64,000 nucleotides of DNA from Arcobacter sp. CECT 8983 (lineage in GTDB: Bacteria > Campylobacterota > Campylobacteria > Campylobacterales > Arcobacteraceae). Under the pieces are notes generated by a model. That model made no database searches and was not told the origin of the DNA. It saw nothing but the letters and a program-made list of their open reading frames with translations. A program made the translations under genes and the position numbers. The stretch covers positions 1 to 64,000 of the forward strand of contig NZ_PDKF01000024.1 in the NCBI RefSeq assembly GCF_004118855.1. The letters run 5' to 3'. Positions within the stretch are counted from its first letter, which is position 1, and every line of letters starts with the position of its first letter. Shown here one piece after another: positions 33,167 to 56,883 of the stretch.

Positions 33167-34483
33167 ATGAATAAAGAGATATTAAAAGATATTAATGTTT
33201 TATATGTAGAAGATGAAGATGATGTAAGAGAATTTACCAGTAAAACTATTAGTACAATTGTAAATAGTGTAGTAACAGCAAAAAATGGGGTAGAAGGCTT
33301 AGAAAAATTTGAAGAAAATAAAGATATTAATTTAATCTTGACAGATATTAATATGCCTAAAATGGGTGGTCTTGAAATGTGTGCTGAGATTAGAAAAGTA
33401 GATAATGAGATTCCAATTGTAATTACAAGTGCCCATAGTGACCCAGGTTTTTTAAAAAAAGCTATTGATGTAAAAGTTAGTGCATATGCTATGAAACCAA
33501 TTGACCTTTATCATCTAATAGAAAGTATGATTAAAGCAGTAGAACCAATATTTTTAAGAAAAAAACTTGAGCATGTTAATTTAACATTAGCTAATAAGGT
33601 TGAAGAAGCAATAAATCAAACTAAATCAATTCTTGATGCCCAAGATAATATGGTGATTCTAACGGATTTAGAAAAAACAATAGATGCAAATAAAAAATTC
33701 CTTGAATATTTTGAAGTTAAAAACTTAAAAGATTTTTTACAAAAGTATAACTCCTTACTAGATGTACTTAAAAAAGATAATAACCTTCTAAAAAAAGATA
33801 TATTTGAAGATAGCAAAAACTGGATAAGCAAACTTTCTAATTTAAGCGAAATAGATAGAATTGTCAAAATAAAAAATAAAAATGGTGAAGATAGAGTATT
33901 TACAATTAATATTGATGACTATGAACAAAAAGGAGAGCATTATGTTATCTCTTTTACTGATATTACAGAATTAAAAGAGAAATCAAATCTTTTAGAATAT
34001 CAAGCAAATCATGACCAATTAACAGGTCTATTTAATAGACAAAAATTTAATGAAATATTCAAAAAAGAGATTAAAAGAGAAAAAAGATACAAAAATAATC
34101 TATCATTAATTATTTTTGACATTGATAACTTTAAAAGTATTAATGATGAGTTTGGACATAATGTAGGAGATGAAGTATTAAAAGTAATTGCAAAAGTTCT
34201 TTTAGAAAGCATTAGAGAACATGATTGCGTTGCTAGATGGGGAGGTGAAGAGTTTTTAGTGTTATTACCCCAAACAGATGAATATGGTGCAAAAAAAGTT
34301 GCAGAAAAAATTAGAGAAGCAATTGCAAAATATAAGAAAGAGGATTTACCAAAACAAATAACTGCAAGTTTTGGGATTGCAAAATTAAAAGAAGATGATG
34401 ATGAAGTAAGTATTCTAAAAAAAGCAGATGATGCGCTATATGAAGCTAAAAAAAAGGGTAAAAATAGAGTTGAAGTTTTTTAA
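33167..34483 (+). CDS. Response-regulator diguanylate cyclase
   Basis: 438 residues. Receiver (about 8-125) with Asp60 in [10 protein letters not shown], a PAS-like middle part (about 150-270), and a canonical GGDEF domain (about 275-438) with [20 protein letters not shown] and the active-site GGEEF at 359-363. It should make c-di-GMP from two GTP when phosphorylated. Contrast with the two degenerate GGDEF proteins at 54073-55967. The stop overlaps lptB by four bases. Confidence 0.93.
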
Positions 34484-53463: not shown

Positions 53464-54057
53464 ATGTCATTAAAAGTCCAACCAATGGGTGATTATCAAA
53501 CAAACTGTTACATTATTACTGTAGATGGGAAAGATTTTATTATTGATCCAGGTGTAGGTGCTACAAGATGGGTTTTACAAAATGTTCAAAACCCTGTTGC
53601 CATTTTAAATACACATGGACATTTTGACCATGTGTGGTCAAACAAAGAAGTGAGTGATAAATTAGGTTTAAAAATTTATACTCCAGAAGAAGACAATTTT
53701 ATGCTAGAAAAAGACCCTTATGGGTTTGGTATGACTCCTTCATGTGCTGATGTATTAGTTAAGCCAGATGAAGAGTTTGATTTTGATGGAATAAAAGTAA
53801 AATTTCATTATTTTCCTGGTCATACTCCTGGATGTTCTGCAATTGAGATAGATAGCCACTTATTTTCAGGGGACTTTATCTTTAATAACTCAATTGGAAG
53901 AACAGATTTTCCTTTTTCTAGTCCAGAAAAAATGAAAAAGAGTATAGATAAGATATTAGCATGGAATAAAGATATTAGAATATATCCAGGTCATGGTCCA
54001 GCTACATCTTTAAATAGTGAAAGAAACTCTTTGTTAAATTGGAAAAATTATTTATAA
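53464..54057 (+). CDS. MBL-fold metallohydrolase (glyoxalase II-like)
   Basis: 197 residues. THGHFDHVW is the HxHxDH metal motif, with further ligands in PGHTPGC, SGDFIF and PGHGPATS. Glyoxalase II-like members hydrolyse thioesters such as S-lactoylglutathione; the exact substrate is unknown. It precedes the GGDEF gene pair by 15 bases. Confidence 0.88.
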   Translation: MSLKVQPMGDYQTNCYIITVDGKDFIIDPGVGATRWVLQNVQNPVAILNTHGHFDHVWSNKEVSDKLGLKIYTPEEDNFMLEKDPYGFGMTPSCADVLVKPDEEFDFDGIKVKFHYFPGHTPGCSAIEIDSHLFSGDFIFNNSIGRTDFPFSSPEKMKKSIDKILAWNKDIRIYPGHGPATSLNSERNSLLNWKNYL

Positions 54058-54072: not shown

Positions 54073-54984
54073 ATGAATTATAACAAGTTGAATTCTTATA
54101 GTTTTCAAATGATTATTGCATTAAATGATCACTTAAAAACTTTAAATAAATTAGATGATATTTTTGCATATCTATCATCTTATTTAAATAAAGATTTTGG
54201 GATATCTAAAATAAAAGCATGTATTAATAATAGAAGCATTTATTCTAATATTGAGGAAGATAAAGAGCTTAAAAGAAAAAATTTATTTATCAAACTTGAT
54301 GAAAATGATGAACTAGAAATAACGTTCTATTTTAATTCAGAACAAGAAGAAGATAAAATTGAATCTACTACAGATATAATAAGAACAACATTTAACTTAA
54401 TTTCTCAAACTATATATAATAAATATCTAACATCTCAACTTAAAGAGTTATCATTAAAAGATACATTAACAGGTCTTTATAATAGACAATATGTAGATGA
54501 ATATCTAAAAACAATTCTTCCTCTTTCATCTAGAGAGAAAAAGAAAATAGCTTTTTTAAAAATTGGTATTGACCATTTTAAAGCTGTTATTGATGAATTC
54601 GATTATAAAATAGGAGATAAAGTTTTAAAAGAGTTAGCAGTTAGCTTAAAAAACTCTGTTAGAACTTCTGATATAGTTTCAAGAATTGACTCAGATGAGT
54701 TTTTAGTTATTTTACATAATGTAGAAAGTGAAGAAAATGCAATAAAAGTTGCAGAAAAAATAATAGAAAACTTTAAGAAGAAAAAAGTTATTGTTAACAT
54801 AAGTACAAATCAAATACTTATGAAAACAATTTGTGCTGGTATTTCTATGTTTCCTGATGATGCAAACAAAACAGAAGAGATTTTTAGATCTTCTGATATT
54901 GCCCTTTATGAAGCAAGGAATAAAGGTAGAAGTCAACTTTTCAAATTTAAAAAAGAAGAGACAAATACAATAGATCTTTTTTAA
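54073..54984 (+). CDS. Degenerate GGDEF-domain protein (first of a tandem pair)
   Basis: 303 residues, no membrane helix. N-terminal GAF-like part (about 1-130), then a GGDEF domain. The signature reads DSDEF (206-210), the metal Asp of the canonical DIDHFK is Gly in KIGIDHFK, and the guanine-contact Asn is Ile in AVIDEF. It may be an inactive c-di-GMP or GTP sensor rather than a cyclase. It ends TNTIDLF, shared with the next gene eight bases downstream. Confidence 0.82.
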   Translation: MNYNKLNSYSFQMIIALNDHLKTLNKLDDIFAYLSSYLNKDFGISKIKACINNRSIYSNIEEDKELKRKNLFIKLDENDELEITFYFNSEQEEDKIESTTDIIRTTFNLISQTIYNKYLTSQLKELSLKDTLTGLYNRQYVDEYLKTILPLSSREKKKIAFLKIGIDHFKAVIDEFDYKIGDKVLKELAVSLKNSVRTSDIVSRIDSDEFLVILHNVESEENAIKVAEKIIENFKKKKVIVNISTNQILMKTICAGISMFPDDANKTEEIFRSSDIALYEARNKGRSQLFKFKKEETNTIDLF

Positions 54985-54992
54985 GGAACAAA

Positions 54993-55967
54993 ATGAAAAA
55001 CAATATTTTAGAATTAGTAAAATCAGCAAAAACAAATGAAAAAGATTATAAAGCGTTAGAAAATATTTATAAATTATATGACCAATTACAATACTCTTCA
55101 AACTTAAAACAAATGGCAGAAGACATATACCTTTGGTTACATACAAACTTTGAAGTTGACAATGTGACTTTTGCTTTATTTGATATTGAAAGAAATAATA
55201 GAGAGAATGTTTTTATTGAAGGAGATGAATTTTATTTAGATGATTCCTTATCTTTTTTCTTTATTATTAATACACATACAAATCTAAATGCCATAGTATC
55301 ATTTTGTGCCTCATCAAAGGAACATCATAATATTTTATCAGAACAATACAATGTAATTGAATCTGCACTATTTCAAATTTCACCTATTATTCAAAATGGT
55401 ATTATTAAGAAAAACTTTATTGAATCACTTTCTTTAGACTCAGTTACAAAAGTTTATAATAGACATTATCTAATTGAAAACTTAAATAAACAAATAACAC
55501 TATCTAAAAAAGAGTATAAAAGTATTTACTTCTTAATGGTTGGTGTTGATCACTTTAAAGCTGTTATTGATGAGTTTGACCATGAAATTGCAGACCAAGT
55601 ATTAGTTGAACTTGCAAGGGTTATTCACTCAAACATCTCAGAATTTGACATGGTTGCAAGATTAAGTGGTGATGAATTTTTAATATCAATGCTTAGTACA
55701 ACAAGTGAAAGTGAAATAGCTAAAATTGCACAAAATATAATAAATGATTTTGCAAAAATAAAAGTAATAGTAAATGATGCAGGACATACTTTACAAAAAA
55801 CAATTTGTATAGGATATGATGTATTTAATACCTTAGATAGTGATGATAATATTGATAAAACTATTAAAAATGCTGATATAGCTCTATATGAAGCAAAAAA
55901 TAGAGGAAGAAGCCAGTTCTTTAATTATAAAGACTTAAAACCAGATGACACAGTAGATTTATTCTAA
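54993..55967 (+). CDS. Degenerate GGDEF-domain protein (second of a tandem pair)
   Basis: 324 residues and a clear paralogue of the preceding protein: LMVGVDHFKAVIDEF and SGDEF (225-229) show the same losses of metal Asp and Asn, while the signature is closer to active enzymes. The N-terminal half is a separate GAF-like region. It ends DTVDLF. Likely translated from the same mRNA as its neighbour. Catalysis is doubtful on sequence grounds. Confidence 0.82.
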   Translation: MKNNILELVKSAKTNEKDYKALENIYKLYDQLQYSSNLKQMAEDIYLWLHTNFEVDNVTFALFDIERNNRENVFIEGDEFYLDDSLSFFFIINTHTNLNAIVSFCASSKEHHNILSEQYNVIESALFQISPIIQNGIIKKNFIESLSLDSVTKVYNRHYLIENLNKQITLSKKEYKSIYFLMVGVDHFKAVIDEFDHEIADQVLVELARVIHSNISEFDMVARLSGDEFLISMLSTTSESEIAKIAQNIINDFAKIKVIVNDAGHTLQKTICIGYDVFNTLDSDDNIDKTIKNADIALYEAKNRGRSQFFNYKDLKPDDTVDLF

Positions 55968-55968
55968 T

Positions 55969-56883
55969 CTATTGTATCTTTCTGGCTTTCATATAAACTC
56001 TCTTAGGTGCTGGATAACCTTCAACTGTTCTACTTGGATCTTCTGGGTCTAAAAAATCTTCTAAACTTTGATCAAATGACCATTTTGTTTTTCTTTGTTC
56101 TTCATTTGTAGTAGTTGTTGTAGCAATTACTTCAATATTTTCAAAACCTGCCCTACTCAACCAGTTTCTTAAAGCAGGAATAGTTGGAATAAAATAGATA
56201 TTTGGAATTTTTGAATATCGTTTATTTGGAGTTAAACAAATTTCTTCTTCTCCATCTATCATAAAAGTATCAATTAAAATCTCACCCTTTGAATTTAATC
56301 CACGTGCCAATGATTTTAAAGTTCCAACTGGATCTGGTCTATGATATAAAACACCAAGCATAAAAATAAAATCAAACTTATGATTATAATATTCTAAATG
56401 CTCTACTCCAAGCATCTCATAGATAATATCTGATTTAACAAAATGATTAATAAACTCAAACTGATGTAAAGTTAAAGGAGCAGGATCAAAACCAATCAAT
56501 CTTTTTGGCTTATCTTCAAGCATTCTAAACATATAATATCCGTTGTTACAACCAATATCTGCTACTACTTTATCTTTTAAATTAAAATGAGGCCTAATAA
56601 GATTATATTTTATATTACTTTGCCATTCACTATCAATTTCAAGACCAAATAGATTAAAAGGACCTTTTCTCCAAGGAATAAGTTTTTGTGCTGTTTCTTC
56701 TATTAAAGCAAACTCATTATCAGTTAAATCCTCTTTTTTTCCAATAGTAAACCAATCACCATAATCTATGTGCAATTTCTCTTTATGTAAATCAAAAACC
56801 TTTAATAATTGATTATACCAAGGTTCAACATTTTTCCATTTTCGACAATCGTCTTTTTTCTTTTTAAGTTCTTCTAAATTCAT
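55969..56883 (-). CDS. cmoB: tRNA U34 carboxymethyltransferase
   Basis: 304 residues. The SAM-binding DIGCNNGYYMFRML and the conserved FMLGVLYHRPDP are CmoB signatures. It makes cmo5U at the wobble position from carboxy-SAM; CmoA, which supplies that, is not here. Convergent with the GGDEF pair. Confidence 0.94.
   Translation of the reverse strand: MNLEELKKKKDDCRKWKNVEPWYNQLLKVFDLHKEKLHIDYGDWFTIGKKEDLTDNEFALIEETAQKLIPWRKGPFNLFGLEIDSEWQSNIKYNLIRPHFNLKDKVVADIGCNNGYYMFRMLEDKPKRLIGFDPAPLTLHQFEFINHFVKSDIIYEMLGVEHLEYYNHKFDFIFMLGVLYHRPDPVGTLKSLARGLNSKGEILIDTFMIDGEEEICLTPNKRYSKIPNIYFIPTIPALRNWLSRAGFENIEVIATTTTTNEEQRKTKWSFDQSLEDFLDPEDPSRTVEGYPAPKRVYMKARKIQ

Follow-up and report, generated by a model that had tools for sequence, protein, structure and literature searches.

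Two adjacent, conserved and apparently inactive GGDEF proteins of Arcobacter share a C-terminal peptide with an intact cyclase and with CheD

Two adjacent genes of Arcobacter sp. CECT 8983, here called A and B, encode soluble GGDEF proteins that are, judged by their residues, nearly certainly catalytically dead diguanylate cyclases (pseudo-DGCs). The same substitutions are kept across the family, and both proteins end in a short peptide that recurs on an intact membrane-bound paralogue, C, and on the chemotaxis deamidase CheD. Our best explanation, which we consider on balance probable, is that the pseudo-DGCs are recruited by this docking peptide to a putative hub that also receives C and CheD, and that A reads c-di-GMP. 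Both genes lie in a window of 64,000 nucleotides, the whole stretch of DNA analysed, which is part of contig 24 of a 2.74 Mb genome containing 41 GGDEF domains (Table 1).

Both reading frames lie at the coordinates given in the initial annotation, and their PF00990 scores of 123.3 bits (A) and 118.1 bits (B) lie far above the cut-off of 23.8. Only 8 bases separate A from B and 15 bases separate A from an upstream metallo-beta-lactamase (MBL)-fold gene; both A and B converge on a CmoB-like methyltransferase gene (PF08003), and this neighbour order is the same in most family loci. AlphaFold2 (AF2) models (pLDDT 87.7 for A and 86.5 for B) show a GGDEF fold joined by a long helix to a small α/β domain at the N-terminus. 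In A, two helices and four strands precede the long helix that runs into the GGDEF domain, whose fold superimposes on PleD (1w25) with a Z of 24.0 and on the first 18 rows of GGDEF structures with Z between 24.0 and 26.7. The N-terminal domains of A and B had no Pfam match, and full-length Foldseek matches had low TM-scores, so the label 'GAF-like' is tentative. Named records with close relatives of B come from Arcobacter, Halarcobacter, Malaciobacter, Campylobacteraceae and, once, Sulfurospirillum. A B-type gene of 58% identity is also found on a plasmid of Arcobacter cloacae (NZ_CP053834.1:42541-43512).

Table 1. Features of the A/B locus and of a comparison protein, in window coordinates
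Feature	Position	Strand	Evidence
Gene A, soluble GAF-like + inactive GGDEF protein, 303 aa	54073..54984	+	ORF list, Pfam, AF2 model
Gene B, soluble GAF-like + inactive GGDEF protein, 324 aa	54993..55967	+	ORF list, Pfam, AF2 model
A, N-terminal α/β sensor-like domain and linker helix (GAF-like, tentative)	54073..54456	+	AF2 model
A, GGDEF domain	54457..54936	+	PF00990 match, own genome
A, Gly165 replacing first metal Asp (PleD D327)	54565..54567	+	Sequence, alignment; Gly in 34/37 A-type rows
A, Ile173 replacing guanine-binding Asn (PleD N335)	54589..54591	+	I/V/L in 37/37 A-type rows
A, intact RxxD I-site, RTSD	54661..54672	+	Sequence; R and D in 37/37 A-type rows
A, DSDEF signature	54688..54702	+	Sequence
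A, tail TIDLF + stop	54967..54984	+	Pattern match; pLDDT <50 at residues 299-303
B, GGDEF domain	55434..55916	+	PF00990 match, own genome
B, Gly184 replacing first metal Asp	55542..55544	+	Gly in 46/53 mixed-B rows
B, Ile192 replacing guanine-binding Asn	55566..55568	+	I/V in 51/53 mixed-B rows
B, degenerate I-site, SEFD	55638..55649	+	Sequence; Arg in 8/53 mixed-B rows
B, SGDEF signature	55665..55679	+	Sequence
B, tail TVDLF + stop	55950..55967	+	Pattern match; pLDDT <50 at residues 321-324
MBL-fold gene, conserved neighbour upstream of A	53464..54057	+	PF00753
CmoB-like methyltransferase gene, conserved convergent neighbour of B	55969..56883	-	PF08003
RR-PAS-GGDEF comparison protein, intact residues, outside the A/B system	33167..34483	+	Pfam, alignment

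The motif reads KIGIDHFKAVIDEFDYKIGDKV in A and MVGVDHFKAVIDEFDHEIADQV in B. Alignment, in PleD numbering (D327, N335, D344, E370, K442, R446), upholds the residue losses first noted for the pair: the first metal Asp is replaced by Gly and the guanine-binding Asn by Ile, and the signatures are DSDEF and SGDEF. Specifically, an active diguanylate cyclase has two metal-binding acids (D327 and E370), of which the first is Gly in both proteins and the second is kept as Asp; it binds guanine through an Asn and an Asp, of which the Asn is Ile and the Asp (D344) is kept. Hypr-GGDEF proteins (cGAMP synthases) carry Ser for the D344-equivalent Asp and an intact catalytic site. A and B differ on both counts, with this Asp kept in 34/37 A-type and 52/53 other rows and the metal Asp lost. 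The RR-PAS-GGDEF protein encoded elsewhere in the window does keep the residues lost in A and B, as the initial annotation had it, together with a GGEEF signature and an RxxD. We read 28 domains by regular expression from the best 30 of the 41 GGDEF domains of the genome (one, L005, is clearly a mis-hit that lies away from the motif, and in another, L022, the Asp is Asn), and the combination of Gly and Ile occurs in A and B alone. This, with the recurrence of the pair of residues across the family, indicates more than chance. Lacking the metal Asp and carrying a greasy side chain in the guanine pocket, neither protein would synthesize c-di-GMP.

We searched 100 genomes for relatives and extracted the DNA surrounding the matches. 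At least one A/B-type protein is present in 52 of the 61 family genomes (own genome included; two of the 52 were added from a further search). By our own assignment of class labels, 37 rows are of A type; these have Gly (34) and never Asp at the metal position, and Ile, Val or Leu at the guanine position throughout. A mixed 'B' set of 53 rows has Gly (46) and never Asp at the former and Ile or Val (51) at the latter; it comprises every short tailed row outside the A list, mostly B, and takes in five rows of unsure place that carry an I-site, three divergent rows from a single genus, two Asn/Asn rows that the tree places next to C and two rows on long branches. The proposed check, that orthologues keep the substitutions, is thus borne out, and no orthologue among these 90 rows has the motifs restored. 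Asn occurs at the guanine position in two rows (G028 and G059), both of which also have Asn for the metal Asp and branch beside C, and so look like a second, separate inactive lineage. Members of this short Asn/Asn lineage carry GGGEF or SGGEF signatures and DLF ends (L121:5998-6957 and L125:4039-4992). Separately, the B-position protein of one genus has Glu where the metal Asp should be and TGYEM instead of GGDEF, and keeps the -LF tail (L099:5036-5998, L100:6864-7826 and L102:6875-7837).

We regard it as very improbable that the two proteins retain enzymatic activity, whether by using metal differently or by acting on a different nucleotide. The Asp equivalent to D344, the Asp of the signature and the Lys/Arg and Arg of the C-terminal part (K442 and R446) are mostly kept, but over all A/B-type rows the first metal Asp is Gly in 80/90 and Asp in none, the guanine position holds Ile, Val or Leu in 88/90, and the metal ligand has no conserved acidic replacement. 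Still less credible is that the two are decaying, non-functional duplicates. Catalytic residues are indeed lost, A/B-type proteins were not found in 9/61 family genomes, and one B-like match (G100) has an internal stop; against this, the same residues are fixed across many genera, and dN/dS against close relatives is 0.10-0.21 for A (four comparisons) and 0.03-0.07 for B (four), which makes B as constrained as the active C (0.04-0.14, two comparisons), with some dS values near or above 1 and hence saturated. The dN/dS range of 0.03-0.21 indicates genes that are maintained rather than decaying. Adjacent pseudo-DGC pairs in operon-like order number 35, of which 28 are 8 or 9 bases apart. A search of 298 genomes of the phylum returned no full-length short pseudo-DGC outside the family among the matches listed; the outside relatives there are of the longer, C-like kind. 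A non-catalytic role for A and B is, in our judgement, highly probable. The selected non-catalytic function proposed in the initial annotation is therefore well supported, by family-wide conservation of the substitutions and by purifying selection on both genes; its argument from shared losses in two paralogues has weakened, for the reason given next.

In a tree of 123 GGDEF domains, built with a quick method, rooted at the midpoint and containing several long branches, the A and B types form one group (SH-aLRT 98) that adjoins C and its relatives; seven bystander rows of 130 were excluded. With A and B forming a single clade next to an intact C, one catalytic loss is the most likely history, and parallel loss in A and B was rejected. 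C itself is a membrane diguanylate cyclase of ~615 aa, encoded in the same genome (C4:584001-585845; L128:5998-7842, minus strand), and all its catalytic residues are present in 29/29 rows. Its layout comprises an invariant CxxCH before a hydrophobic stretch, then a domain with four invariant cysteines (C343, C354, C372 and C383), then the intact GGDEF domain. Pfam found nothing in the periplasmic domain, and an N-terminal profile gave a weak match (E 0.0016) to 3b42, a chemoreceptor sensor of Geobacter, in a region containing the CxxCH. Domains of the sCache_heme type bearing CxxCH are common in Campylobacterota, as a 2026 preprint puts it in the portion available (PMC12889525). C is possibly a redox- or NO-sensing cyclase with a haem-c-type CxxCH domain. 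A and B would have arisen in the family ancestor by duplication of the cytoplasmic half of this membrane-bound protein.

C lies directly upstream of a pseudo-DGC, within 16 bases, in seven genomes and elsewhere in the own genome and most others; this is consistent with an ancestral C-A-B cluster that C left in other lineages. The MBL, CmoB and CcsBA neighbours mostly stay at the A/B locus. Alternatively, the GGDEF domains of A and B may be their main working part, forming heterodimers with an active cyclase such as C and thereby trapping or tuning it, with the tail secondary. This appears rather unlikely as the main account, even though A and B sit nearest to C in the tree and retain the GGDEF fold, the seven genomes place C next to a pseudo-DGC, and an E. 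coli two-hybrid study, in the part at hand, reports strong heteromeric contacts of degenerate GGDEF domains, for instance those of CdgI (PMC5635695). The separation of C from the pair in most genomes speaks against it, and it leaves the tail, and the presence of the tail on CheD, unexplained. Heterodimerization is compatible with the docking-peptide explanation, and both can be true together; a role as dimer partner, one of the two examples first offered for the pair, is possible.

The other example, nucleotide sensing, is possible for A through its I-site. An RxxD five residues before the GGDEF signature, the hallmark of an I-site receptor, is present in A and absent from B. Since A keeps this motif and the B type has mostly lost it, A could bind c-di-GMP at the inhibitory site and B probably does not. 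We consider c-di-GMP reading by A reasonably likely. PopA, CdgA and PelD are I-site GGDEF receptors, and A resembles them in combining an inactive catalytic site with an intact RxxD. The present system differs from them in having a B without I-site, paired genes and a shared tail, and c-di-GMP binding by A is a prediction.

The residue losses were read correctly by the initial annotation, but it had not seen that A and B share a C-terminal motif with C and CheD. Among 119 rows of A, B and C, 114 end in [IVL][DE][LF]F, in 12 forms in all, the commonest being IDLF (47), VDLF (24) and IELF (22). The five odd tails are INLF, VHLF, ITLF, FKLF and INFF. The terminal Phe is invariant (119/119), and the linker that precedes it is variable. 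In both models the tail residues are undocked, with pLDDT near 41-42 at the last residues, so docking of the tail within its own protein is not supported. A strict DNA pattern for the tail matches 12 sites in the own genome, and the gene-length frames ending there are those of C, A and B only. A wider [IV][DE][LF]F-stop pattern, which covers TAA and TGA stops and leaves out Leu or Met at -4, frames below 30 codons and, outside the strict pattern, TAG, matches 41 sites, where the gene-length frames are those of A, B, C and CheD only. In three other genera the strict pattern matches 30 sites, and frames of at least 40 codons ending there are again only A, B and C. From composition, ~0.57 such ends are expected by chance per 2,700 proteins, a round guess of proteome size; the estimate draws on 666 unrelated ORFs with two chance hits, both from one amidohydrolase family. 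That amidohydrolase stands beside B in one genus (two genomes), ends in SIELF or QIELF, and was taken as a chance structural end. The β-clamp motif is QL[SD]LF, and a β-clamp function was set aside, as Gln is found at -5 in none of the A/B/C rows. Literature on a 'DLF motif' with bacteria returned, judged by title, nothing on bacteria. We infer that the tail of A, B and C is likely a docking peptide.

The fourth tailed protein of the genome is CheD (PF03975), encoded next to a CheR-family gene and unlinked to A, B and C on the chromosome. With the identities of CheY, CheA and CheB presumed, the locus reads cheY-cheA-cheR-cheD-cheB. The order cheYARDB is that given for Arcobacter in the accessible portion of a published study (PMC9321776). 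Given the chance expectation, the CheD tail in one genome alone proves nothing; the link depends on the conservation and doubling of the tail in the CheD proteins of the family. CheD is present in 52/61 family genomes (a genome set that differs from that of the first relatives search). Of 50 distinct family CheD proteins, 48 end in [IV][DE][LF]F and the other two in MEFF, and 42 carry a further internal [IV][DE]LF within the last 45 residues. The tail extension is absent from all 20 CheD-like loci read outside the family, a count that excludes one locus (L305) without a CheD ORF by the expression used; one more outside CheD (G080) ends in ITLF. A tail in one more protein would be unsurprising, whereas a doubled, conserved tail of the same form within the same family is surprising. 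Two genomes, G044 and G049 (each 97% complete), keep tailed proteins and have chemoreceptors, with CheD and CheR not found, which indicates that retention of the tail does not depend on CheD; the two assemblies are fragmented MAGs, however, and the absence of a single contig could conceal both cheR and cheD. That CheD docks on the same hub is plausible at a little below even chances.

The C-terminal pentapeptide of chemoreceptors, of the NWETF type, is a tether for CheR and CheB. Like the tail, it is C-terminal and flexible, with an acid at -3 and Phe at -1; the tail differs in lacking Trp at -4 and in being carried by cyclase-like proteins and CheD, not by receptors. In the own genome, 10 of 28 chemoreceptor loci have a long flexible linker followed by a WE[STA]F end (L314, L318-L321, L323, L326 and L330-L332), the classical CheR/CheB tether. 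None of the 28 ends in the tail and two carry internal, chance-like matches to it, taking the longest ORF per locus. It is improbable that the tail is itself a variant of this pentapeptide with CheR or CheB as its docking site, which would set pseudo-DGCs and CheD in competition with chemoreceptors. WE[STA]F has the same spacing as the tail (bulky residue, acid, any residue, Phe) and CheD is encoded beside the CheR-family gene, but the xWxxF of the tether is missing: position -4 is Ile, Val, Leu or Phe in 119/119 A/B/C rows and Trp in none, and the fragmented MAGs G044 and G049 keep tailed proteins with CheR not found. CheR is an attractive candidate docking target for the tail. At one chemoreceptor locus of the own genome (L337) the longest frame ends in a long X run (masked or unknown bases). 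The linker of a CheA-like kinase (L291:6170-8308) contains four GF[FY][DN]-type repeats (GFYDEN, GFFNDE, GFFDEE and GFFDDM), and a relative (L292) has similar ones, which look like another repeated short motif.

According to the docking-peptide explanation, A and B would be non-catalytic regulators, each with a disordered C-terminal [IVL][DE][LF]F peptide that docks on a common partner, and the same partner would receive C and CheD. There A would read c-di-GMP through its RxxD, for example that made by C, and c-di-GMP-bound A might alter its own attachment or that of neighbouring proteins. For B, which has no I-site, the role would be that of a partner, competitor or scaffold blind to c-di-GMP. 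A stronger and more tentative version is a private docking code of the family, in which [IVL][DE][LF]F is displayed by C, by the two pseudo-cyclases and twice by CheD, and a single hub, for whose sites the two inputs compete, couples local c-di-GMP, made by C and sensed by A, to receptor adaptation by CheD.

Inactive GGDEF proteins are already known as a kind. One of the closest parallels is PdeB of Shewanella, whose inactive GGDEF domain docks on the polar landmark HubP/FimV (PMC9061725, as excerpted). As proposed for A and B, this GGDEF domain serves as a protein-docking module with its far C-terminal region involved; PdeB differs in binding GTP, in having an EAL domain and in keeping the catalytic residues with the I-site lost, and its contacts are Lys residues on the domain, where A and B have a terminal [IV][DE]LF peptide (same excerpt). 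By this analogy, a polar landmark is the other natural docking idea. CdgI and other degenerate GGDEF proteins of E. coli resemble A and B as stand-alone proteins and are proposed to act by heteromeric contacts; unlike here, the available text describes no common tail and no link to chemotaxis proteins (PMC5635695). Campylobacter subgroup II, in the same phylum, also has degenerate, inactive GGDEF proteins, but according to the text at hand no active cyclase is left there and the I-sites are degenerate, whereas C and many intact GGDEF domains remain here (PMC9239204). The A. butzleri genome paper suggests that GGDEF proteins likely interact with chemotaxis proteins, with no protein named in the excerpt (PMC2147049). 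In literature on Arcobacter cyclases, degenerate GGDEF proteins and CheD or chemotaxis, neither the A/B pair nor the tail appears in titles or abstract openings. The less ordinary aspects of the present system are the intact parent C, the one old loss, the I-site split between the copies and the tail shared with CheD.

Here an enzyme has cleanly died across a whole family and has been strictly conserved since, while its living parent persists, so pseudo-cyclase function can be studied against C; the shared tail is a handle for finding the partner. If cyclases are scored solely by their GGDEF signature, SGDEF proteins such as B are taken for active ones, as would follow from a Campylobacter survey that, in its accessible portion, lists SGDEF as an active motif (PMC9239204). 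Arcobacter has kept only one chemotaxis class (cheYARDB) and lost RpoN, FliA and CsrA, and its flagellar regulators are described as unknown in the part of the study available (PMC9321776); a c-di-GMP input joined to CheD would be a candidate for this missing flagellar regulation. If the docking code is true, local c-di-GMP and receptor adaptation would be physically coupled.
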